This document shows, piece by piece, positions 7,925 to 18,791 of a DNA stretch of 64,000 nt. The notes under the pieces are model-generated. The model made no database searches. It had not been told where the DNA came from and saw nothing but the letters and a program-made list of their open reading frames with translations. The position numbers and the translations under genes were made by a program. The stretch is taken from the NCBI GenBank assembly GCA_021801025.1, contig JAJYYK010000001.1, forward strand, positions 186,001-250,000. Direction: 5' to 3'. The stretch comes from Pseudomonadota bacterium (GTDB taxonomy: Bacteria; Pseudomonadota; Gammaproteobacteria; Burkholderiales; Sulfuriferulaceae). How positions within the stretch are numbered: the stretch's first letter is position 1; every line of letters starts with the position of its first letter.

Positions 7925-8359
7925 ATGAAATATTTTATATTGTTAGGAATATTATTTTGTGCCAACAGTCGTGCAGACTGTTGGGGAGATGTCGAGGCGC
8001 GATTTGCCGTATCCCAGTATTTATTGCTGGCCATTGCGCAACACGAATCCGGATTAAATCCTCATGCAGTTAACCGCAATGAAAACGGGTCATATGATAT
8101 TGGTTTGATGCAGATCAACACATCATGGCTACCTGTATTAAAGCCCTATGGCATTGGGCTCGCGGAATTAGGAAATCCATGTATTAACTTAAATGTGGGC
8201 GCTTGGATATTGGCGAATAATTTTATCTTGTACGGCAAAAATTGGCGTGCGGTCGGCGCTTATAACGCAAAAACGGAAATTAAACGGGTGCATTACGCAC
8301 AGCAGGTTTTTATTAAAATGAAGAACATTGCCGATGAATATGGAATTGAATCGAAGTGA
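7925..8359 (+). CDS. VirB1-like lytic transglycosylase
   Basis: 144 residues. An N-terminal signal peptide (residues 1-17) precedes an SLT-type goose-lysozyme fold. The catalytic glutamate is in AIAQHESGLNP (Glu41), followed by GLMQIN and the tyrosine motif VGAYNA. It opens peptidoglycan locally so that a secretion apparatus can cross the wall. It resembles VirB1, TrbN and IagB. It is the first gene of the Trb/VirB operon, and its 3' end overlaps the next gene. It is visibly richer in A/T than the rest of the operon. Confidence 0.88.
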   Translation: MKYFILLGILFCANSRADCWGDVEARFAVSQYLLLAIAQHESGLNPHAVNRNENGSYDIGLMQINTSWLPVLKPYGIGLAELGNPCINLNVGAWILANNFILYGKNWRAVGAYNAKTEIKRVHYAQQVFIKMKNIADEYGIESK

Positions 8360-9413
8360 GACTGTGCAGAGCAGTAAAGGGCGCAAAGCACTGGATGTAT
8401 TGCGCGGTGCACTGCGACCAATTTTGCCTTATCTGGATAACCCGAACGTGCAGGAAATCATGATCAATCGACCAGAAGAAATTTGGGTGGAAGAATCTGG
8501 CGTGATGCAAAGGATCGAAGCGAGTTTGCAACCGCTGGCGGTAGAAATGGCCATACGTGCCCTGGCTTCTAATAACGATAAAAAACCGACACCCATTATG
8601 GACGCGCGATTACCCGATATGCGTGTTGCGGCGGTGATGTATCCCGTTGCCATTCATGGCCATGCGATGAGCCTGCGTAAACATGCGGCACAACAAATTT
8701 CACTGCATGAATATGTGGCGAGTGGCGCGTTTTCGCCGTTGCAAGTGGCTGAAGCCCGGCAATGCTATCACGTTGGTGCGCAGCGTCCATCTGAGGTGCA
8801 GGTGCAACAGGGTGGAGATTTTTTACGCCAGTTTTTGATTTGGGCGGTGGCACATCGACATAACGTATTGATTGCCGGGGGAACCAGTTCAGGTAAAACC
8901 ACTTTGACCAATGCGCTATTACAGGCAATACCTGCAAATCAGCGGGTAATTACGATAGAAGATACGGCGGAGCTCAAGTTAGATACACCTAACCGGGTGT
9001 CATTTGAGGCCAATCGCGAGTTGGGTGTGGATGTGCGCGCTTTGGTTCGAGTTTGTCTGCGTTTTCGTCCAGATCGTATTGTTGTGGGAGAAATTCGTGG
9101 TGGTGAAGCCTATGATCTGGTGGATTCGCTGAATACAGGACACTCAGGCGGCATCAGTACGATACATGCTGACACGGCAGAATCGGCGCTGAATCGCCTG
9201 GAGAGCTTAATGCGCATGTCACCGGAAGCGGTTAATTTCCCGCAAGCGGCGATGGCGCGTCAAATTGCCCAGACTTTTCGCTTTGTGGTGCAAGCGGCTA
9301 ATTTTGGTGGTCAGCGTGGCCCGGTTCGGGTGGTGGAAATAATAGGTTTTGAGCAAGATAAGTATCAATTTCGGGAGGTTTTTAATCGTTTTCCAGCCGG
9401 GTATCCGCAGTGA
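8334..9413 (+). CDS. trbB: Type IV secretion ATPase TrbB/VirB11
   Basis: About 359 residues from ATG 8334 (ATG 8340 is equally possible; an upstream TTG at 8328 is unlikely). An N-terminal domain precedes the hexameric ATPase core. Walker A is GGTSSGKTT near residue 181, followed by TIEDTAEL, the Asp box, Walker B RIVVGEIRGGEA and the His box SGGISTIHAD. All are standard for the VirB11/TrbB family that powers pilus assembly and substrate transfer at the inner membrane. It overlaps the lytic transglycosylase gene by 26 nt. Length and motif set are complete, so the gene appears intact. Confidence 0.95.
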   Translation: MNMELNRSETVQSSKGRKALDVLRGALRPILPYLDNPNVQEIMINRPEEIWVEESGVMQRIEASLQPLAVEMAIRALASNNDKKPTPIMDARLPDMRVAAVMYPVAIHGHAMSLRKHAAQQISLHEYVASGAFSPLQVAEARQCYHVGAQRPSEVQVQQGGDFLRQFLIWAVAHRHNVLIAGGTSSGKTTLTNALLQAIPANQRVITIEDTAELKLDTPNRVSFEANRELGVDVRALVRVCLRFRPDRIVVGEIRGGEAYDLVDSLNTGHSGGISTIHADTAESALNRLESLMRMSPEAVNFPQAAMARQIAQTFRFVVQAANFGGQRGPVRVVEIIGFEQDKYQFREVFNRFPAGYPQ

Positions 9414-9464
9414 GTTGAGTGTGTGTCTGGAATGGTGGCCAGTTTCATTTAGTGAGGACAGTAT

Positions 9465-9740
9465 ATGAATGCGTTATACCAACCATTTTGCTATATTTTA
9501 AGCAATTTTTTTGATAGCCCTGCCATGATAGGGCTGATTGTAGCCATCACTTTGGCCGTAGGCGTGATTGCATGGCTAACAGATATGGGTGGGCGCGGTT
9601 TCCCGGTGATGACCTTTTTAGTTGTAGGCATCGGCACCGGGATGCTGTTGGGAATCCCGGCCATAATGGCCGGGATGGGTATCGCTTTGCCGTGTAATCA
9701 AACGACTGTGGCGAGCATTTCAGCCACACCAGCGCATTAA
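9465..9740 (+). CDS. trbC: TrbC/VirB2-like pilin
   Basis: 91 residues with a good ribosome site (GAGGAC, 5 nt from ATG). Two hydrophobic helices (about 20-40 and 46-75), separated by a short polar loop DMGGRG, match the VirB2/TrbC pilin pattern. The N-terminal stretch is unusually short for a cleaved signal sequence. Position between trbB and trbD is canonical. It would form the conjugative or secretion pilus. The sequence similarity is low, so the assignment relies on order and topology. Confidence 0.8.
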   Translation: MNALYQPFCYILSNFFDSPAMIGLIVAITLAVGVIAWLTDMGGRGFPVMTFLVVGIGTGMLLGIPAIMAGMGIALPCNQTTVASISATPAH

Positions 9741-9787
9741 TATCCTGATATTTTTGGGCATCTCACTTTGTATCAATACTCGAAACC

Positions 9788-10108
9788 ATGCGGCCTATAG
9801 TGCGCCGAACACAAGTCGCCACCCGTTTATCCGAGGTGAAAATGCTTGCCGGAGGAGAGTTTAAACTGGTGGTGGCTAATCTGGCCTTCGGCTTTATGGC
9901 GATTGCGTTGCTACATGTGTGGCAGTACGTTCTGGTCGTAGGGGTGTTGCACGGGGTGCTGATGTTGGCAGCCAAATCAGATTTGCAAGCACGCGAGATT
10001 TATCTCGAATACACCAGGCAGTCTGATCGCTATACGCCCTGGTCAGTGCCACGACGTTACCGGTTTAATCGTCGTCCGGTTGGGTTTGGGCGAGATCTCA
10101 TGTTATGA
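9788..10108 (+). CDS. trbD: TrbD/VirB3-like inner-membrane protein
   Basis: 106 residues. The short N-terminal tail, a hydrophobic double span at about residues 28-62 (LVVANLAFGFMAIALLHVWQ and onwards) and a basic C-terminus with YTRQSDRYTPWS fit the VirB3/TrbD family, which anchors VirB4 in the inner membrane. Its stop overlaps the start of trbE by 4 nt (ATGA), so the two are translationally coupled, and in some systems they are fused. Confidence 0.85.
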   Translation: MRPIVRRTQVATRLSEVKMLAGGEFKLVVANLAFGFMAIALLHVWQYVLVVGVLHGVLMLAAKSDLQAREIYLEYTRQSDRYTPWSVPRRYRFNRRPVGFGRDLML

Positions 10109-12558
10109 GCACGCATCACGAGCGCCCTTTTGCCGAGTTGTTGCCGTGGATGTTTACCTATGGTGACGATGATGTGGTGGTGAATAAGGACGGTTCATTG
10201 ACAGTGTTTTTTGAAGTGACCGGTATCGACATTGATGGATCAAGTTCCGGCGACGTGGCTTATTTTCTTCAAGCTTTAGATCAGGCGTATGAAGTGTTTA
10301 AAGAGGCGCCTTGTGTATTTACCTGGTTGGTACACCGTAAAAATTGTCCGCATTATCCAGTCGCTGTGTTTCCCGACCCTTATTCCCAATTGATTGACGC
10401 GCAGCGGAAAGCGCAATTTGATTCGGGCAGTAACTTTATCAACCGCCATTATTTGGCCATTACTCTGATTTCTGATAGCGGATTGAATGGCATTGCCACA
10501 CGGATGCATTTTTATCTCCAAAATGGATATGGAGTATTTCGTGCCATAGGCCGCACGCTGGGGTCTTTGTTGCGTGGCAATGAAGCATTTGCCTATGCGG
10601 CCAGTGAACTGGCCGGCCGCACAGAAAAGTTTAATGGCTTGTTAGACCGTTTTGTGGAGCGTTTGTCTGGTTTGGGTATTGCACGTGTCGCAGGTAATTC
10701 ATTGAGGGGGTTGTTACGCCGTTGCGTGAACCCTTCATCAACCCAGGAAGAGTTGGTTGCAATGCCATTTTTGGATACGCATATACCGAACGCAGAGTTG
10801 GTCATTGAACGCGAGTACCTGCTCTTCGATGAATGTACGTATGTCATGGGCGTTTCGTTGAAAGAGCCGCCACGAATCACCTATCAAGGGTTGTTTGATC
10901 AGATGTTGTCCCTGGATGGCGAGTTGGTATTCTCGCAAAATTTTCGTTTTGCCAGCAAGAAGCAGGTGATAAGTTATTTAACCAGTGTCCGCCAGTACAA
11001 TGATTTGCTGAAATATTCGCCACTGACCTGGCTGTACCTCGCTTTCAACGGTAATGCCGATGCACGCACCAATGATGCCAGGATGGAATCGGCTGAAGCA
11101 GCGCATCGGGCAAGTAACCGGGTAGAAATGAACGATGCTTATTATGGTTGGTATGCCGCTCAAGTCATGGCAATTGCGGGCACGGCACAAGCCGCCGAAC
11201 AGGTGATTGCCACAGTATCTGCGGCGCTGGAAGTCAATAATTTGACCGTAATAAAAGAAAAAACACATTTGCTGTCAGCATTTGCGGGGGGGGTTGCCGG
11301 CATGTATGCCACACAGAAACGCTGGTTTATGTTGGAGATTCCCTCTTTGTCGGACCTTACTCCGCTACGTACTGTAGATCCCGGACAGCAGAGCAACGCT
11401 TATTTGACCCAGCAACGTGGTCAACATTCCGCCGCACTCATGTTGCTGGAAACGGCTTACAACACGCCGTATTACCTGAATTTGCATGTGGGTGATTTGG
11501 GACACGCTTTGGTGGTGGGACCTTCCAGATCAGGAAAGTCTGCCGGGATGAATGTGTTGATTGCACAATTTAGAAAATACATACCCTCCCGAATCATTAT
11601 TTTTGATAAAGACCGATCTTGTCGTATCGCTACTTTAATGATGGGTGGCGACCACATCGATATTTCGGCGCATAGCCGTAACCGTTGGAATCCACTGAGT
11701 TTGCTGGGTGATGCCAAGGCACTGGAATGGTTGGCAAGTTGGATAGAAGGCTTAATCTGCTATCGTGGTTACCGTTATACAGCAGAGGATGCGAAGGATG
11801 TTTGGCGTGCTTTACAGGGGTTGTCCGTGCAAGATGCTGCGCATTGGACATTGGGACATTTGCATTCCGTTTTGTCACCGTCATTGCAAAATGAATTGGA
11901 AGCATGGGTAGGTTCAGGGGCATTGGCACATTATTTTGATAACCAGGAAGACACCTTTTCCATATCGGAATTTTGCTGCATGGAAATGGGCGAAATTTTA
12001 CAAAAAGAGCATGTGGCCCGTGCATTTATGGATTACGCCTTTTACCGTATTTATACCTTGTTACGTGACCCACGGCATGGTGTCATTCCCACGCTGATTT
12101 ACGTCGAAGAATGTTGGTTTATGCTGGAAAACCCTTATTTTGAACAGAAAATTCGCGATTGGACTAAAACCTTTGCCAAGCTGGTTGCACAATTGGTGAT
12201 GGCAACACAGTCCCTGGAGGACATTGCCGATTCTCGCGTGTTTTCCAGTTTGCGTGACAACATTCAGACCCGAATCTATTTGCCTAACAGCAATGCGCTC
12301 TCGCCACAAATGCTGTCCCTGTATGTGGAGCAGTTTGGTTTGCATGAAGATCAAGTGGCACAAATCGCGTCGGGTACACCAAAGCGGGATTATTTCATTC
12401 AGCAGCCTGGCGTGTTTCGTCAGGCAATTCTGTCCATTGATCCGGTGACACTGGCGATCGTGCGTTCTGATTCTCTGGCGCAAATGCGGTTTCAACACCA
12501 TTATGAATCGGGGCAGATCAATTGGCGGGAAAATTATATGGCAGACATGCTTTCCTGA
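10105..12558 (+). CDS. trbE: Type IV secretion ATPase TrbE/VirB4
   Basis: 817 residues, the usual TrbE length. The N-terminal CagE/VirB4 domain (to about residue 430) precedes a RecA-like ATPase. Walker A is GPSRSGKSA near residue 471, with IFDKDRSC following. Walker B is LIYVEECWFML near residue 664, and motif MATQSLEDI follows. It is the main assembly ATPase, tied to TrbD and the pilin. No internal stop or frameshift is seen. The next gene begins only 12 nt later. Confidence 0.95.
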   Translation: MSTHHERPFAELLPWMFTYGDDDVVVNKDGSLTVFFEVTGIDIDGSSSGDVAYFLQALDQAYEVFKEAPCVFTWLVHRKNCPHYPVAVFPDPYSQLIDAQRKAQFDSGSNFINRHYLAITLISDSGLNGIATRMHFYLQNGYGVFRAIGRTLGSLLRGNEAFAYAASELAGRTEKFNGLLDRFVERLSGLGIARVAGNSLRGLLRRCVNPSSTQEELVAMPFLDTHIPNAELVIEREYLLFDECTYVMGVSLKEPPRITYQGLFDQMLSLDGELVFSQNFRFASKKQVISYLTSVRQYNDLLKYSPLTWLYLAFNGNADARTNDARMESAEAAHRASNRVEMNDAYYGWYAAQVMAIAGTAQAAEQVIATVSAALEVNNLTVIKEKTHLLSAFAGGVAGMYATQKRWFMLEIPSLSDLTPLRTVDPGQQSNAYLTQQRGQHSAALMLLETAYNTPYYLNLHVGDLGHALVVGPSRSGKSAGMNVLIAQFRKYIPSRIIIFDKDRSCRIATLMMGGDHIDISAHSRNRWNPLSLLGDAKALEWLASWIEGLICYRGYRYTAEDAKDVWRALQGLSVQDAAHWTLGHLHSVLSPSLQNELEAWVGSGALAHYFDNQEDTFSISEFCCMEMGEILQKEHVARAFMDYAFYRIYTLLRDPRHGVIPTLIYVEECWFMLENPYFEQKIRDWTKTFAKLVAQLVMATQSLEDIADSRVFSSLRDNIQTRIYLPNSNALSPQMLSLYVEQFGLHEDQVAQIASGTPKRDYFIQQPGVFRQAILSIDPVTLAIVRSDSLAQMRFQHHYESGQINWRENYMADMLS

Positions 12559-12570
12559 TGAGCTGAAAGA

Positions 12571-13401
12571 ATGAAAAGTGCCATAAAAAAATACTTGTTT
12601 GTCAGCGTCATAATGGGGATGCTGGTCTACTCCCAATCCGGCCATGCCTTTACATGGGCGACAGAGTGGACACAAATTGCCAATTTTATCAAATTGATGG
12701 ATAGCGGCATCAAAGAAGGCATCATGCTGGAAAATCAGGCGCAGGCTGAAATCACACGCATCAATACTTTGATGGACGCAGAAAAAAATCTGGTGAATGC
12801 ACCAACGGACTTGATACACAACACCATTGCGGTGTACTCAACACAGCGTCAGCAAACCCAGCAGCTATTAAATGACCTGAACGCCATGCAAACTGTTTAT
12901 CAGCAGGCCACACAGATGCTGGGGTCGCGTATGGTTGAAGCACAGGCCCTGGGCACTAACCCACAACAGTATCTGGAAATGGAAGCCCAACTGGCCGCCA
13001 CCAAAGGGGGGCAATATCAAACCGCTTATCAGCGTGATACCCAAACTTTACAGGATGTGGTGGATAAATCGATGTCTTTGGAAAACATGATGATGCAATT
13101 ACCCAGTCGGGGTAATCTGGAAGGCATGGACAAATTGAATACCCTGATGGCGATGGTGGCTGGGGAAACACTCAATTTGAATAAGCAATTTGCACAGGCC
13201 AGTGCGGAACATCATGCGCAGCAGGTATACAACACACAACGGCAACAAACTGATGTGGCGCAGCAACAACGTGCAGCCTTGCAATGGGCGCAACAACAGC
13301 AAGCAGAACAACTGCAGGCGTCAAGCAGTGCCAGTACCCCTTCCGGTTACAGTCAAAGCCAGATGGAACACAAGGCCTGGGCGGCAGCCATCCCACCATG
13401 A
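12571..13401 (+). CDS. trbJ: TrbJ/VirB5-like minor pilus protein
   Basis: 276 residues. The N-terminal signal peptide (to about residue 26, SGHA) is followed by a largely helical, Gln-rich coiled-coil body typical of TrbJ and VirB5. These proteins sit at the pilus tip and help target recognition and assembly. The C-terminal 40 residues are Gln/Ala/Ser-rich and probably unstructured. It overlaps the next small gene by ATGA. In Ti-type trb operons trbJ also follows trbE directly, so its position is normal. Confidence 0.85.
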   Translation: MKSAIKKYLFVSVIMGMLVYSQSGHAFTWATEWTQIANFIKLMDSGIKEGIMLENQAQAEITRINTLMDAEKNLVNAPTDLIHNTIAVYSTQRQQTQQLLNDLNAMQTVYQQATQMLGSRMVEAQALGTNPQQYLEMEAQLAATKGGQYQTAYQRDTQTLQDVVDKSMSLENMMMQLPSRGNLEGMDKLNTLMAMVAGETLNLNKQFAQASAEHHAQQVYNTQRQQTDVAQQQRAALQWAQQQQAEQLQASSSASTPSGYSQSQMEHKAWAAAIPP

Positions 13402-13661
13402 AAATCATGCTGGCATTTGCATTGTTGTGGGTGAATGGGCATGAGCAACGCATGTTTTTACGTCAAATCGTGTTGTGGCGAAACATGTCCTTGGACGAAC
13501 GGGCGAAATATCGTTCACCGTCCGAGTTTCGTTATGTCTGGCGGGTACGCTGGGCACTGGCATGGGCAATGGTGATGACGGAAACCCCATTATTGCTGGC
13601 GTGGTCCATACTCACCAGTTTATTGTTCGGGGTAATTATTCTGGCCAGGTGGTTACCGTGA
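13398..13661 (+). CDS. Small membrane protein in the trbK position
   Basis: 87 residues from ATG 13398, which overlaps the trbJ stop as ATGA. The longer open frame upstream lies inside trbJ and is not used. It has a hydrophobic N-terminal segment (MKIMLAFALLWVNG), a basic middle (WRNMSLDERAKYRSPSEF), and a C-terminal hydrophobic span of about 25 residues. There is no lipobox. In RP4 and Ti plasmids trbK, the entry-exclusion lipoprotein, lies exactly here, so an analogous role is possible. The sequence gives no homology that I recognise. It overlaps trbL by GTGA. Confidence 0.65.
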   Translation: MKIMLAFALLWVNGHEQRMFLRQIVLWRNMSLDERAKYRSPSEFRYVWRVRWALAWAMVMTETPLLLAWSILTSLLFGVIILARWLP

Positions 13662-15055
13662 TCGCGTGTTCAGGCCTTTGGCACAGAGCGTGGATAAAAC
13701 GGTGGGTTTATGCAATCTTAATGATTGGCATCGCGCTGTCCAATGCGGTATGGGCTGGCAATACGACGGATACGGGATTCGGCAGCGTGGTCGGACAGCC
13801 AGTCAATACAGCGGCTTCCGCACCACCTGCACCGGATTTTGGTAAAGAGTTGTATGCAGGATTAACTGCCATGCACACCGCTGGCGCAGCGCTGGCCCCG
13901 AAGTTAGTTCCGGTGGGTGAGCGGTTGTTGGGCGTGTTTTTTGCCATCATGTTGGTGTGGTATATTTTTGAAGGTATGGCCGAGCAACAATTGGATGGCA
14001 TGTTCCGTAAAATTATTCAGCACAGTATGCGGGCCATGATTGCGATGGAATTGCTGGCTAGCTGGGGAAGTCCGAACGGTTTAGGGGTGGCTCACTTTCT
14101 TGAGTATGGTTTGGATGAGCTAAGTACGCCGTTTATACAGGCGGGAGACCCTTCGGACAAAGTGATTGATGTGTATTATCAAGCGATACAGGGTATGTTT
14201 AGTATGGTGACGAACGACCTGTCGAGCTTTTCGCTCTACAGCGTGGCGAAGTCTGCCGTGAACGGTGGATTTGGCTGGATGTTATTCATGGCTATTTTGA
14301 CACTGGTGGTGGCCCTGATTTGTGTCGCACTGCTGATGTTGTCCATGACTTACGCTTTGATTTACGTCAACATTGGCGCTTTTATTGTATACATTGGGTT
14401 AGCGGTCGGCCCAGTATTTGTGGCCACGCTTGTTTTCCCCCCTGCGCAGGGCTATTTCCAGAACTGGATGAGTTTTGTCATTTCGGGTGGAATATACAAG
14501 CTGGTGGCGGTGGTGGTGGGCGACATCATGGCGCAAGTTTTGATAGAGGTGGGTAAACACGGCAGCAATGTGGCGATCATGGCGAATGGCGCGGGGGCGT
14601 TTTCAGGCGCCTTTGATTTGTTGAAATTTTTGCTGTACTCACTCTTGTTGGTGTTCTGGAGTCTGTTTGCTTATTTTTTGACCAGACACATTTCTAATTT
14701 TGTACATGCCCTGGCAGGCGGTATCAACTTGCATATGGGCAGCTTAAGCAGCCTGAAACCTTCTCTTTCTGGCAGCTTGCCGGGATATTCCCAAATAATG
14801 AAAATGCGACAAGAGCGTCAGGACGCCAAACAGGGTGAAGCCAAAACACAGGAAAAAATCCGGATAGCCGAAGCAAAAGCCGCTGAGAAAGCCCAAATGG
14901 CAGAGGCCAAAGCCGCAGCCAAAGCCCAAATGGCCGCTGAAAAAATCTCAGCCAGAACGCAAGCCGCTGAAGCGAAGGCAGCAGCAAAAGCCCAGGCTGC
15001 CACTGTAAAACCGGCGACGCGATCCAGAAAAAAACCCCCACGGGCACCAGAGTGA
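13658..15055 (+). CDS. trbL: TrbL/VirB6-like channel protein with Ala/Lys-rich tail
   Basis: About 465 residues from GTG 13658, which overlaps the preceding stop as GTGA. A signal-like span near the start is followed by five or more membrane spans in the middle (for example around IFEGMAEQQ, MLFMAILTLVVALICVALL, and the block near residue 320), as in VirB6/TrbL. It forms part of the inner-membrane translocation pathway. From about residue 385 the C-terminus is soluble and built from near-repeats of AEAKAA(E/A)KAQMA, a charged helical tail seen in some TrbL proteins. It is the last gene of the operon; trbF, trbG, trbH and trbI do not follow. Confidence 0.88.
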   Translation: MIACSGLWHRAWIKRWVYAILMIGIALSNAVWAGNTTDTGFGSVVGQPVNTAASAPPAPDFGKELYAGLTAMHTAGAALAPKLVPVGERLLGVFFAIMLVWYIFEGMAEQQLDGMFRKIIQHSMRAMIAMELLASWGSPNGLGVAHFLEYGLDELSTPFIQAGDPSDKVIDVYYQAIQGMFSMVTNDLSSFSLYSVAKSAVNGGFGWMLFMAILTLVVALICVALLMLSMTYALIYVNIGAFIVYIGLAVGPVFVATLVFPPAQGYFQNWMSFVISGGIYKLVAVVVGDIMAQVLIEVGKHGSNVAIMANGAGAFSGAFDLLKFLLYSLLLVFWSLFAYFLTRHISNFVHALAGGINLHMGSLSSLKPSLSGSLPGYSQIMKMRQERQDAKQGEAKTQEKIRIAEAKAAEKAQMAEAKAAAKAQMAAEKISARTQAAEAKAAAKAQAATVKPATRSRKKPPRAPE

Positions 15056-15136: not shown

Positions 15137-16741
15137 TCATTTCGCTGCCACACGCAACGCCAGAGCTTCAGCAACGCGGATACCATCTATTGCAGCCGAT
15201 AAAATGCCCCCCGCATAGCCCGCACCCTCACCAGCAGGATACAGCCCTGCTGTATTCACGCTTTGGTAATTGTCTTCATTTCGACGTATACGGACCGGAG
15301 AAGAGGTGCGTGTTTCCACGCCCGTCAATACGGCATCAGGCAAAGCAAATCCACGCAGTTCTTTGTCAAAGGCTTGCAGGGCTTCGCGCATTGCCGAAAT
15401 GACATAATCCGGCAATGTGCTGGTCAAGTCGCACAATGTCACCCCCGGTTGATAAGAAGGCTGCACTTCACCCAACTGAGTGGAAGCGCGACCAGCCATA
15501 AAATCGCCCAATAACTGAACGGGCGCATGATAATTGCCGCCGCCCAACTCAAAAGCACGGCCTTCCCACTGTCGTTGGAATGCAATGCCTGCCAGGGGAT
15601 GTCCCGGATAGTCATCAGGTGTGACATTGACAACAATCGCGCTGTTGGCGTTGCGTTCATTGCGTGAGTATTGGCTCATGCCGTTGGTGACCAGCTTGCC
15701 TGGCTCGGATGCGGCGGCAACCACAGTGCCGCCTGGACACATGCAAAAACTGTACACCGCCCGCCCATTGCTGGCGTGATGCACTAAACGGTAATCTGCT
15801 GCACCCAACTCCGGGTGGCCTGCCGCATCACCCAGTCGACACTGGTCAATTAAGCCCTGTGGGTGTTCGATGCGCACCCCTACGGAAAAGGGTTTGGCTT
15901 CCATGTAAACACCGCGCGCATAAAGCGTTTCAAAAGTATCTCGCGCACTGTGACCAATGGCTAAAATAGCTTCAGAGCAGGCAATCACTTCTCCGCTATC
16001 CAATATCACTGCGCTTAATTCATTATTTTCACGCACAATGTCTGCCACACGGCTTTGAAAACGAATCTCGCCACCCAAGGCTTGAATGGTGGTGCGCAGC
16101 TGTTCCACGATCCCTACCAAACGAAAAGTCCCGATGTGCGGTTTGCTGACATAGGCGATTTCTTCTGGGGCACCGGCCAGAATCAACTCATTGATGACTT
16201 TACGGGCATAATGTTTGGGGTCCTTGATTTGGCTGTACAGTTTGCCATCTGAAAAGGTCCCAGCCCCACCTTCACCAAATTGTACGTTCGATTCAGGCAT
16301 CAGTTCCCCTTTGCGCCATAAACCCCAAGTGTCCTGCGTGCGTTCGCGCACTGATTTCCCCCGCTCCAAAATCAAGGGGCGGAATCCCATCTGTGCCAAA
16401 ACCAAACCTGCAAATAAACCTGCAGGACCCAGGCCGATCACCACCGGACGGGTAGGTAAGCTGTCTGGCGCATGCGTTACAAAATGGTAAGCGGTGTCGG
16501 GCGTGACGCTGATGTGCTTGTCTGCCCTGAATTTGGATAATAACGCAGCTTCGTTGCTCACCCGGATATCTACAGTATAAACAAACTGTATCATCGTTCG
16601 TTTACGTGCGTCGTAACCACGGCGAAATATCTTGAATTCAAGCAGGTTTTTTTCAGTGATGTGCAAACGACGGCAAATTGCCCCTTTTAGAGCGTCAGCC
16701 GAATGTTCAATAGGCAACTTGAGTTCAGTAATACGTAGCAT
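15137..16741 (-). CDS. FAD-dependent dehydrogenase of the COG2509 type
   Basis: 534 residues. A 90-residue N-terminal domain precedes the FAD-binding glycine motif GLGPAGLFAG. The ERG strand end and the segment FGEGGAGTFSDGKL are hallmarks of this conserved but poorly characterised family. The C-terminal motif YPAGEGAGYAGGI places the FAD ribityl contact. It is probably cytosolic; substrate unknown. It is convergent with trbL, 80 nt away, so it marks the right edge of the secretion operon. Confident as to family, not to reaction. Confidence 0.85.
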   Translation of the reverse strand: MLRITELKLPIEHSADALKGAICRRLHITEKNLLEFKIFRRGYDARKRTMIQFVYTVDIRVSNEAALLSKFRADKHISVTPDTAYHFVTHAPDSLPTRPVVIGLGPAGLFAGLVLAQMGFRPLILERGKSVRERTQDTWGLWRKGELMPESNVQFGEGGAGTFSDGKLYSQIKDPKHYARKVINELILAGAPEEIAYVSKPHIGTFRLVGIVEQLRTTIQALGGEIRFQSRVADIVRENNELSAVILDSGEVIACSEAILAIGHSARDTFETLYARGVYMEAKPFSVGVRIEHPQGLIDQCRLGDAAGHPELGAADYRLVHHASNGRAVYSFCMCPGGTVVAAASEPGKLVTNGMSQYSRNERNANSAIVVNVTPDDYPGHPLAGIAFQRQWEGRAFELGGGNYHAPVQLLGDFMAGRASTQLGEVQPSYQPGVTLCDLTSTLPDYVISAMREALQAFDKELRGFALPDAVLTGVETRTSSPVRIRRNEDNYQSVNTAGLYPAGEGAGYAGGILSAAIDGIRVAEALALRVAAK

Positions 16742-18257: not shown

Positions 18258-18791
18258 ATGAAAACACTGCAAATTCAAAGTAAAACTGATTTACTCGCCG
18301 CGCGCGAGTATTTTTTTAACTGTATTATTGATGCCTTACAGACAGAGCCGATGAAAGCCGAAGAATTAACGGGCTGGGATATGGATCATGTCCCGCCACG
18401 TTGGTTGCTGATGGATGTCGAATTTGGTTCTCTGCTTATCAAGGTCGCCCCCAACTTCATCGGTGAAGGTGATGAAAGTCACTATTATTACTCCATTTCC
18501 GTCGCAGGTGACATTCTGCGTATTGGTATTTTTATGCCGATCTCTAAAATTCTGTCCGCGCCAGTCAAAGACAATGGCAGCAAACGATTGTCCCAAATCT
18601 GGAATGGCGCACCTCTGGATGTGCAGGCACGTGGTGACGGGATTATGTACGAATGGACTTTCACTCATTTCGATCCATCTAACTGGGGGTGCGCGGAAAA
18701 ATATATCCTGGGAATGCGCCTTCTGCATCAGCGTTATATTCGTTTGATTTACAATGTGGTTCGTGAGGAGTTAACGCCCGTTCTCTGTTAG
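18258..18791 (+). CDS. Hypothetical protein, 177 residues
   Basis: I do not recognise this protein. It is soluble with no signal peptide or membrane span, and shows mixed alpha/beta character with several Trp and Tyr residues (GWDMDHVPPRWLLMDVEFGS, then YYYSISVAGD). ATG 18258 follows a weak GTAGGGG site. A strong hairpin terminator follows the stop, which supports a real single-gene transcript. Composition is ordinary, so it may simply be a lineage-specific gene. Confidence 0.6.
   Translation: MKTLQIQSKTDLLAAREYFFNCIIDALQTEPMKAEELTGWDMDHVPPRWLLMDVEFGSLLIKVAPNFIGEGDESHYYYSISVAGDILRIGIFMPISKILSAPVKDNGSKRLSQIWNGAPLDVQARGDGIMYEWTFTHFDPSNWGCAEKYILGMRLLHQRYIRLIYNVVREELTPVLC

Follow-up and report, generated by a model that had tools for sequence, protein, structure and literature searches.

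The window analyzed here, 64,000 nt of a genome from the family Sulfuriferulaceae (assembly GCA_021801025.1, contig JAJYYK010000001.1, positions 186,001 to 250,000 of the forward strand), contains at positions 7925–15055 an operon for VirB1, 11, 2, 3, 4, 5, and 6, the predicted inner-membrane and pilus half of a single type IV secretion system (T4SS). The putative other half, which would occupy the periplasm and outer membrane and comprises VirB8, 9, 10, and a second VirB9 C-terminus, is located elsewhere in the same genome, on contig C6, where its genes and a type IVb pilus operon all run in one direction. We consider it likely that the window operon and the C6 locus constitute one split T4SS with an R64-type IVb pilus, descended from a conjugation cluster and domesticated on the chromosome. 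As far as literature searches show, the split at the joint between engine and core, its retention over a subgroup of a genus, and its recurrence in a second family are new.

Two loci with complementary VirB sets

Whole-genome profile searches of the window's genome (G000; 2.38 Mb in 20 contigs, 99.96% complete, with the window on contig C2) yield one VirB4, one VirB8, one VirB10, and one full VirB9 together with one C-terminal VirB9 (CagX) copy; the sole PF03135 match of the whole genome is the window virB4. Between them, the window operon and the C6 locus contain the P-type T4SS parts VirB3, 4, 6, 8, 9, 10, and 11; VirB5 is tentatively assigned by a weak TrbJ match and VirB2 by its position and helices, and no VirB7 was identified in family scans. 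A first reading of the window from its letters (the sequence-only reading) had described a Trb operon lacking the core module, and proposed an inner-membrane machine without a core, core proteins encoded elsewhere, or a novel secretion or uptake device. The second proposal is supported, as the genome's only VirB8, VirB9, and VirB10 found are on C6 and both loci are kept in all nine carriers described below; the first proposal is not supported, and absence of the core from the organism was rejected. The third may still apply, the carriers having no MOBP or MOBH relaxase and six of the nine no coupling protein.

The operon consists of the following genes:

7925..8359, + strand, virB1, lytic transglycosylase (SLT); PF01464, 75.8 bits; orthologues with 56–92% identity in eight relatives
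8340..9413, + strand, virB11 ATPase; TIGR02788, 250.0 bits versus a cut-off of 249.95
9465..9740, + strand, virB2-like pilin; position, two hydrophobic helices, 63–97% identity to eight relatives
9788..10108, + strand, virB3; PF05101, 33.6 bits
10105..12558, + strand, virB4 ATPase; PF03135 and TIGR00929/TrbE models
12571..13401, + strand, virB5/trbJ-like; position, weak TrbJ match of 27.8 bits versus a cut-off of 360
13398..13661 (ATG 13398), + strand, small gene of 87 aa between virB5 and virB6; tblastn match at the same place in five of eight relatives
13706..15055, + strand, virB6/trbL, polytopic membrane protein; PF04610, 42.5 bits; open reading frame (ORF) listed from 13475

The genes lie where they had been read, and virB1 (SLT), VirB11, VirB3, VirB4/TrbE, and TrbL/VirB6 are matched by models. 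Their order, virB1-virB11-virB2-virB3-virB4-virB5-(small gene)-virB6, with 4-nt overlaps between virB3 and virB4 and between virB5 and the small gene, is that of the Ti and Tn4371 Trb operons (trbB-C-D-E-J-(K)-L), and to this extent the Trb assignment stands. Unlike in those operons, however, the VirB11 model is reached and the TrbB, TrbE, and TrbJ cut-offs are far from reached, virB8-10 are located elsewhere, and a IVb pilus is attached; TrbB–TrbL and TrbF-G-H-I do not form one operon. As had been noted, a gene on the opposite strand directly follows virB6; it encodes a flavin adenine dinucleotide (FAD)-dependent oxidoreductase and ends at 15137, leaving a gap of 81 nt. No relaxase, coupling protein, or integrase is found beside the operon among the window ORFs and in family scans, again as had been read, nor are virB8, virB9, and virB10.

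Two gene starts were revised. For virB11 the ORF list gives TTG 8328, and comparison with relatives makes ATG 8340 likelier. For virB6 the listed ORF, starting at 13475, probably extends too far upstream, and 13706 or 13721 seems a likelier start, because the virB6 match of relatives begins at residue 94–122 (six relatives with a virB6 match, G009 excepted); the small gene is therefore placed at 13398–13661. Its product has no Pfam match. The VirB2-like protein is not matched in family scans and its gene is conserved throughout the nine carriers; the predicted structure has two hydrophobic helices at low confidence (pLDDT, the predicted local distance difference test, 60.4), and the model was dropped as a structure-search query as too uncertain.

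On C6, the minus strand at 21–24.5 kb encodes virB8, virB9, virB10, and the second VirB9 C-terminus, and continues with a 197-aa STN/TcpQ-like protein, a 153-aa ORF whose product resembles pilin-like proteins of relatives, TcpQ, the PilN secretin (below its NCBIfam cut-off, 246.6 vs. 287.65), PilP, PilO (PF06864), the PilQ ATPase, PilR, PilS (PF08805), a PilM-like protein, and PilV with a Shufflon_N domain. The R64-type set of PilN, PilO, PilQ, PilR, PilS, and PilV is complete in G000, and the run behind virB8-10 is, by its gene content, an R64-type IVb pilus operon. A pair of ORFs resembling a two-component system is seen by eye upstream of virB8. A 20-bp motif, YTGTCATNAAAATTTCATTT, built from the nine carriers themselves, is conserved in all of them 62–169 nt before virB8 (L006, L054, L055, L150, L059, L060, L061, L057, and L058), and is possibly a candidate site of the neighboring two-component regulator.

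In the loci compared (L005, 10342–19528; L060, L063, L055, and L056), the pilus behind virB8-10 is R64-like in G000 and G009, and G010 and G013 have another set, which includes a PilT-like ATPase, several N-methyl pilins, and a PilQ of larger size; judged by these genes, this is module exchange at a fixed place.

Some further genes were observed at the virB loci of relatives. In G011 an ORF for a 126-aa lipoprotein-like product is located between virB5 and the small gene (L047, 13207–13587) and by eye recalls entry-exclusion or VirB7-like lipoproteins. Upstream of virB1 in G012, G013, and G015 there is a large protein weakly similar to the TraB-family protein of pTK9001 (L048, 3089–5302; L049, 3972–6062; L053), and the same flank has a triple-helix-turn-helix-like regulator; neither is present in the fetched flanks of the other carriers.

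Retention of both loci in the family

The family sample comprised 18 genomes of one genus (the Sulfuriferula group). VirB4 orthologues with 61–94% identity are present in nine of them (G000, G005, G008–G013, and G015, here called carriers), and the virB gene order is the same in the eight other carriers where contigs allow, which answers the conservation check proposed in the sequence-only reading. Among the remaining genomes, VirB4 matches of G003 and G016 are at 29–30% only, and seven genomes have none. VirB8 is found at 53–93% identity in the same nine carriers, VirB10 at at least 48% in eight of the nine and in none of the other family genomes. In G011, one contig breaks off at virB8 (70%) and virB9, another at the second VirB9, STN, pilN, and pilO, and virB10 probably falls in the assembly gap. 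G008 additionally has a second, distant VirB9/VirB10.

Both halves co-occur in all nine carriers and are never adjacent: the nine fetched virB loci of the eight relatives give no match to virB8, virB9, or virB10, and in G013, where a single 275-kb contig contains both halves, the positions are 87.5 kb for VirB4 and 252.5 kb for VirB8 (about 163 kb apart). The flank downstream of virB6, visible in seven of the nine carriers, contains ordinary, chromosomal-looking genes. In this respect all nine carriers resemble scattered relaxase-less T4SSs, with what is probably a single T4SS spread over separate chromosomal sites and maintained through speciation.

The dN/dS ratios were calculated with our own script by the Nei-Gojobori method for the pair G000 and G009. 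In the window operon, whose ratios the sequence-only reading had proposed as a check, they range from 0.05 to 0.20 (virB1 0.11, virB11 0.10, virB2 0.05, virB3 0.13, virB4 0.08, virB5 0.11, virB6 0.20), and in the C6 core they are 0.10 for virB8, 0.11 for virB9, and 0.19 for virB10, with 0.12 for mutL, 0.18 for an amidase, 0.08 for rbgA, and 0.06 for the FAD oxidoreductase as four neighboring control genes. In a second pair, G010 and G011, the ratios of nine virB genes are 0.03–0.27, with partial coverage for two of the nine. The ratios indicate that both halves are under purifying selection, and with this identity of VirB4 in eight other genomes the operon is, at the sequence level, far above chance. 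The earlier impression that the operon is not decaying holds for relatives as well: the virB frames examined are open, the gaps in G011 virB11 (621 N) and in G015 virB4 (a short run) are stretches of N, and the second VirB9 gene of G005 is open (311 aa) though the profile match crossed two stops. Frame damage was rejected on these grounds for the genes examined.

One-cluster relatives and a probable second split

The VirB, TcpQ, and pilus genes of the two loci are found in one cluster on plasmids of the MOBH/MPF_T type. The order in Polaromonas sp. JS666 plasmid 1 is MobH, TraD, virB11-2-3-4-5-6, an AAA ATPase, virB1, virB8-9-10, TcpQ, and PilN-O-P-Q-R-S-V, and the full annotated set also follows mobH and traD in Thioalkalivibrio pTK9001 and in the plasmid of Azonexus hydrophilus NCP973, whose cluster in addition has an FlhC-family regulator. 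The genes, the sub-orders, the second VirB9-like/TcpQ proteins, and PilN-O-P-Q-R are the same as in Sulfuriferula. In contrast, the plasmid systems form one cluster behind MobH and TraD, whereas here there are two chromosomal loci and MobH and TraD were not found; VirB4 identity to the plasmid versions is just 29–36%, and 36% is the closest in the searched plasmid collection. Limnobacter alexandrii and a metagenome-assembled genome labelled Chloroflexi likewise have on one contig a MobH-like or HD-domain protein, TraD, virB11-2-3-4-5-6, virB8-9-10, a second VirB9, and PilN. The latter cluster (L079, QLUN01000003.1) is a diderm VirB/secretin system despite its Chloroflexi title, and the bin label may be wrong.

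Among 399 genomes drawn from the order, 31 contain VirB4 by a match with an E limit of 1e-90, six from this family and 25 from others. Loci were fetched for 17 of these 25 and CagX was searched in 18; left unfetched were eight genomes of family f13 (G029, G119, G158, G194, G224, G253, G310, and G364), with no CagX match in G029. In seven of the 17 (G025, G064, G065, G073, G103, G232, and G289) virB4 is followed by virB8-9-10 in the same stretch. The group treated as contiguous in the trees below also includes rearranged one-contig cases, namely G073:C212 (VirB9 about 28 kb from VirB4), G177 (VirB9 upstream), and G172; G282, with the halves on two contigs, was assigned to no group.

A second split is observed in family f42, where VirB4 and VirB9 are on different contigs in seven of seven genomes examined. 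The virB8-9-10 trio, with no match to pilus queries in the fetched stretch (up to 20 kb), and the virB11-2-3-4-5-6 operon are both surrounded by housekeeping-looking genes (G270, G299, and G353 listed). A third locus, found in five of the seven (by Pfam in G270 and by tblastn in the others; L173, L174, L175, L176, and L179), encodes FlhD, FlhC, a 291-aa protein, and TraD, and is perhaps a leftover regulator and coupling protein of the ancestral element. The 291-aa protein was tried as a relic relaxase and rejected, since it did not align with MobH proteins (hhalign probability 0.0). In G179 TraD adjoins the virB operon, and G299 has no coupling protein match.

Trees were built for VirB4 (31 rows, without G015) and for VirB8 plus VirB9 (30 rows, with a partial VirB9 row for G011); both are midpoint-rooted and have some long branches. 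Sulfuriferula rows form one clade in both (100/100), as do f42 rows (98/97 for VirB4 and 100/98 for VirB8+VirB9), and one-cluster relatives lie between the two clades in both trees. In both trees G103, G289, and L079 fall on the side of Sulfuriferula (99/99 and 88/97, respectively), and the nearest neighbors of f42 differ: they are G025 and G073:C212 by VirB8+VirB9 (98/96), and by VirB4 those two join Limnobacter. On parsimony, this topology suggests at least two independent splits, in Sulfuriferula and in f42.

The ancestor would then have been a conjugation cluster like that of JS666 plasmid 1, cut into two chromosomal pieces in the Sulfuriferula lineage before the carriers diverged, with MobH and TraD lost and both pieces subsequently kept by purifying selection. 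From the single copies, the co-retention, and the common ancestor we infer that both halves build one machine.

Function, alternatives, and known systems

The carriers were searched for two types of relaxases, MOBP (PF03432) and MOBH (TraI_2, PF07514), and neither was found in any of the nine; MOBF, MOBQ, and MOBV were not searched. A coupling protein (TraG-D_C, PF12696) is absent from the drafts of six of the nine carriers, which thus keep the VirB set without VirD4, and present in G000, G005, and G011, where it adjoins a MobC-family protein on contigs other than those of the system (MobC model scores of 240.8 bits in G000 and 249.4 in G005, cut-off 200; G011 by position and similar sequence), with an integrase-like ORF recognized by eye in G000 and G011. 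The sequence-only reading had named a complete conjugation set elsewhere, core plus coupling protein, as what would refute it; of that set only the core was found in the window's genome, and the one coupling protein found belongs to an apparently separate integrative element on C15. There, at about 8496–13850 of L013 (G000:C15:44000-63000), we observe an integrase-like ORF, a helix-turn-helix protein, the TraD-type coupling protein, and the MobC-family protein, with no T4SS; similar elements are present in G005 and G011 (L177 and L178), and an element of this type looks like a CloDF13-style mobilizable island. The C15 coupling protein was set aside as a candidate part of the system, since most carriers are without one and it adjoins a MobC-family protein on another contig. 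Neither a MOBP or MOBH relaxase nor a coupling protein belonging to the system itself was found, as a self-transmissible element would have, and MobC was seen only in the separate element.

If the two loci act together, their subunits would form a single VirB channel across the envelope, with a VirB2/VirB5 pilus and placed next to the PilN secretin or docked to it; the IVb pilus of the secretin would touch surfaces or cells. As it has no coupling protein of its own, such a channel would not load relaxase-bound DNA from the cytoplasm, and its likeliest jobs would therefore be contact or adhesion and the export of periplasmic proteins, as has been suggested for Trw and Ptl, which also lack VirD4. 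This role is a tentative assignment, somewhat short of an even chance: the IVb pilus with its PilV-like tip favors a contact function, and the assignment of proteins as the substrate is a guess. A faint hint of protein substrates may come from a companion gene:

18258..18791, + strand, 177-aa accessory gene; near the virB operon in six of nine carriers; possible YbjN/secretion-chaperone fold, weak structural matches

In four carriers it is upstream and divergent, in G000 and G009 it follows the operon at a distance of about 3 kb, and its dN/dS is 0.05. The protein has no sequence match on plasmids or in PDB, and Foldseek gives its model no match at E 0.001 or better, the best being a type III chaperone (E 0.003) and YbjN, so that the predicted chaperone-like fold is only a lead.

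Several observations weigh against the one-machine explanation. Nine of the 18 family genomes are without the system, which is therefore not indispensable, absences being counted on drafts 64–99.96% complete, and the absence of relaxases covers MOBP and MOBH. Higher dN/dS is seen for the second VirB9 (0.51), TcpQ (0.45), PilP (0.35), and the small gene (0.45, for a gene that overlaps other frames). The pilus operon behind virB8-10 differs between G000 and G009 and the other carriers, and because of this the pilus may be exchangeable or independent of the VirB machine. In most carriers the region upstream of virB1 matches the virB8-upstream motif no better than shuffled sequence does; a shared promoter of the two loci was rejected, as a dyad search also gave nothing above shuffled controls.

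That the loci encode two unrelated devices that do not meet, an inner-membrane VirB machine in the window and a VirB8-10/type IVb pilus machine on C6, would agree with their separation and the lack of a shared promoter motif; it is nevertheless very unlikely, as every VirB part is single-copy, the halves co-occur in nine of nine carriers and are jointly absent from the other nine genomes (G003 and G016 of these having a distant system), and one-cluster relatives hold the same parts. Still less probable is that they are functionless relics of a conjugative element being lost: the relaxase, TraD, and AAA ATPase were not found with the two halves, and half of the family's genomes lack both, but dN/dS is low in both, the frames are open, and the halves are lost or kept together.

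Other alternatives concern the role. The system may be a cargo-free resident channel used by mobilizable elements that supply the coupling protein and relaxase themselves. CloDF13 uses R388 in this manner: according to PMC7431656, CloDF13 MobB combined with R388 lacking its own coupling protein gives transfer at 2.4e-2 per donor. The TraD-type coupling proteins beside MobC-family proteins in G000, G005, and G011, with the integrase-like ORFs, fit such a shared channel, but the element occurs in only three of nine carriers and so cannot alone explain long-term retention, and G003, the sole genome without this T4SS that was looked at, has other coupling proteins; we regard this role as rather unlikely. 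DNA uptake, with the VirB machine, the IVb pilus, or both drawing in outside DNA, seems more doubtful yet. Type IV pili have a role in DNA uptake in many bacteria. VirD4-less VirB systems can take up DNA, as Helicobacter ComB does, but ComB is described as having neither VirB5 nor VirB11, and Ptl as having no VirB5 (PMC12857230); here both VirB5 and VirB11 are present. A DprA-like ORF seen by eye near the C6 locus is a common housekeeping neighbor.

One split T4SS with an attached pilus, our preferred explanation, resembles several known systems in part. Relaxase-less T4SSs are already known, and so are scattered ones in Rickettsiales, where they have been long kept in several chromosomal places without a relaxase; as PMC3158045 describes it, scattering is relatively rare in other proteobacteria. 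Unlike the Rickettsiales systems, the one described here belongs to another lineage, is cleanly cut at the boundary between the inner-membrane part and the core, and has a IVb pilus attached. Bartonella Trw, Bordetella Ptl, and Helicobacter ComB likewise keep a VirB set with no coupling protein, and the VirD4-less systems listed in PMC12857230 function in adhesion, two-step protein export, or DNA uptake; two loci and an attached IVb pilus set the present system apart from them. T4SS parts with an R64-like pilus are known from IncI plasmids and Pseudomonas aeruginosa PAPI-1, with VirB4 and VirD4 given as the only clear T4SS homologues of PAPI-1 (PMC12857230), in contrast to the nearly full VirB set without VirD4 here. 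In Ferrovum, the T4SSs of all genomes are reported to lack VirB1 and VirB7, and that of F. myxofaciens to lack D4 (PMC4886054), and strain JA12 has T4SS genes at three loci, two of them, unlike here, described as nearly complete sets (PMC4725956). No description of the two-way split was found in literature searches that did not extend to subscription papers.

One may further suggest that MOBH/VirB/type-IVb-pilus machines repeatedly split into an engine locus (VirB11, 2–6) and a core locus (VirB8-10, the pilus being optional), fixed as host-owned cargo-free channels for plug-in mobile elements with their own coupling protein and relaxase; we regard this generalization as speculative and rather improbable. 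If the proposed explanation is true, operon-level scans miscall such systems truncated when the other half sits elsewhere, and a conjugation machine has been cut at the same joint, between the inner-membrane engine and the trans-envelope core, at least twice, surviving as two co-retained chromosomal loci. The split would provide natural material for asking which VirB subassemblies need co-expression and what a T4SS does without a coupling protein, and suggests a possible resident channel for elements with just a coupling protein and a relaxase.

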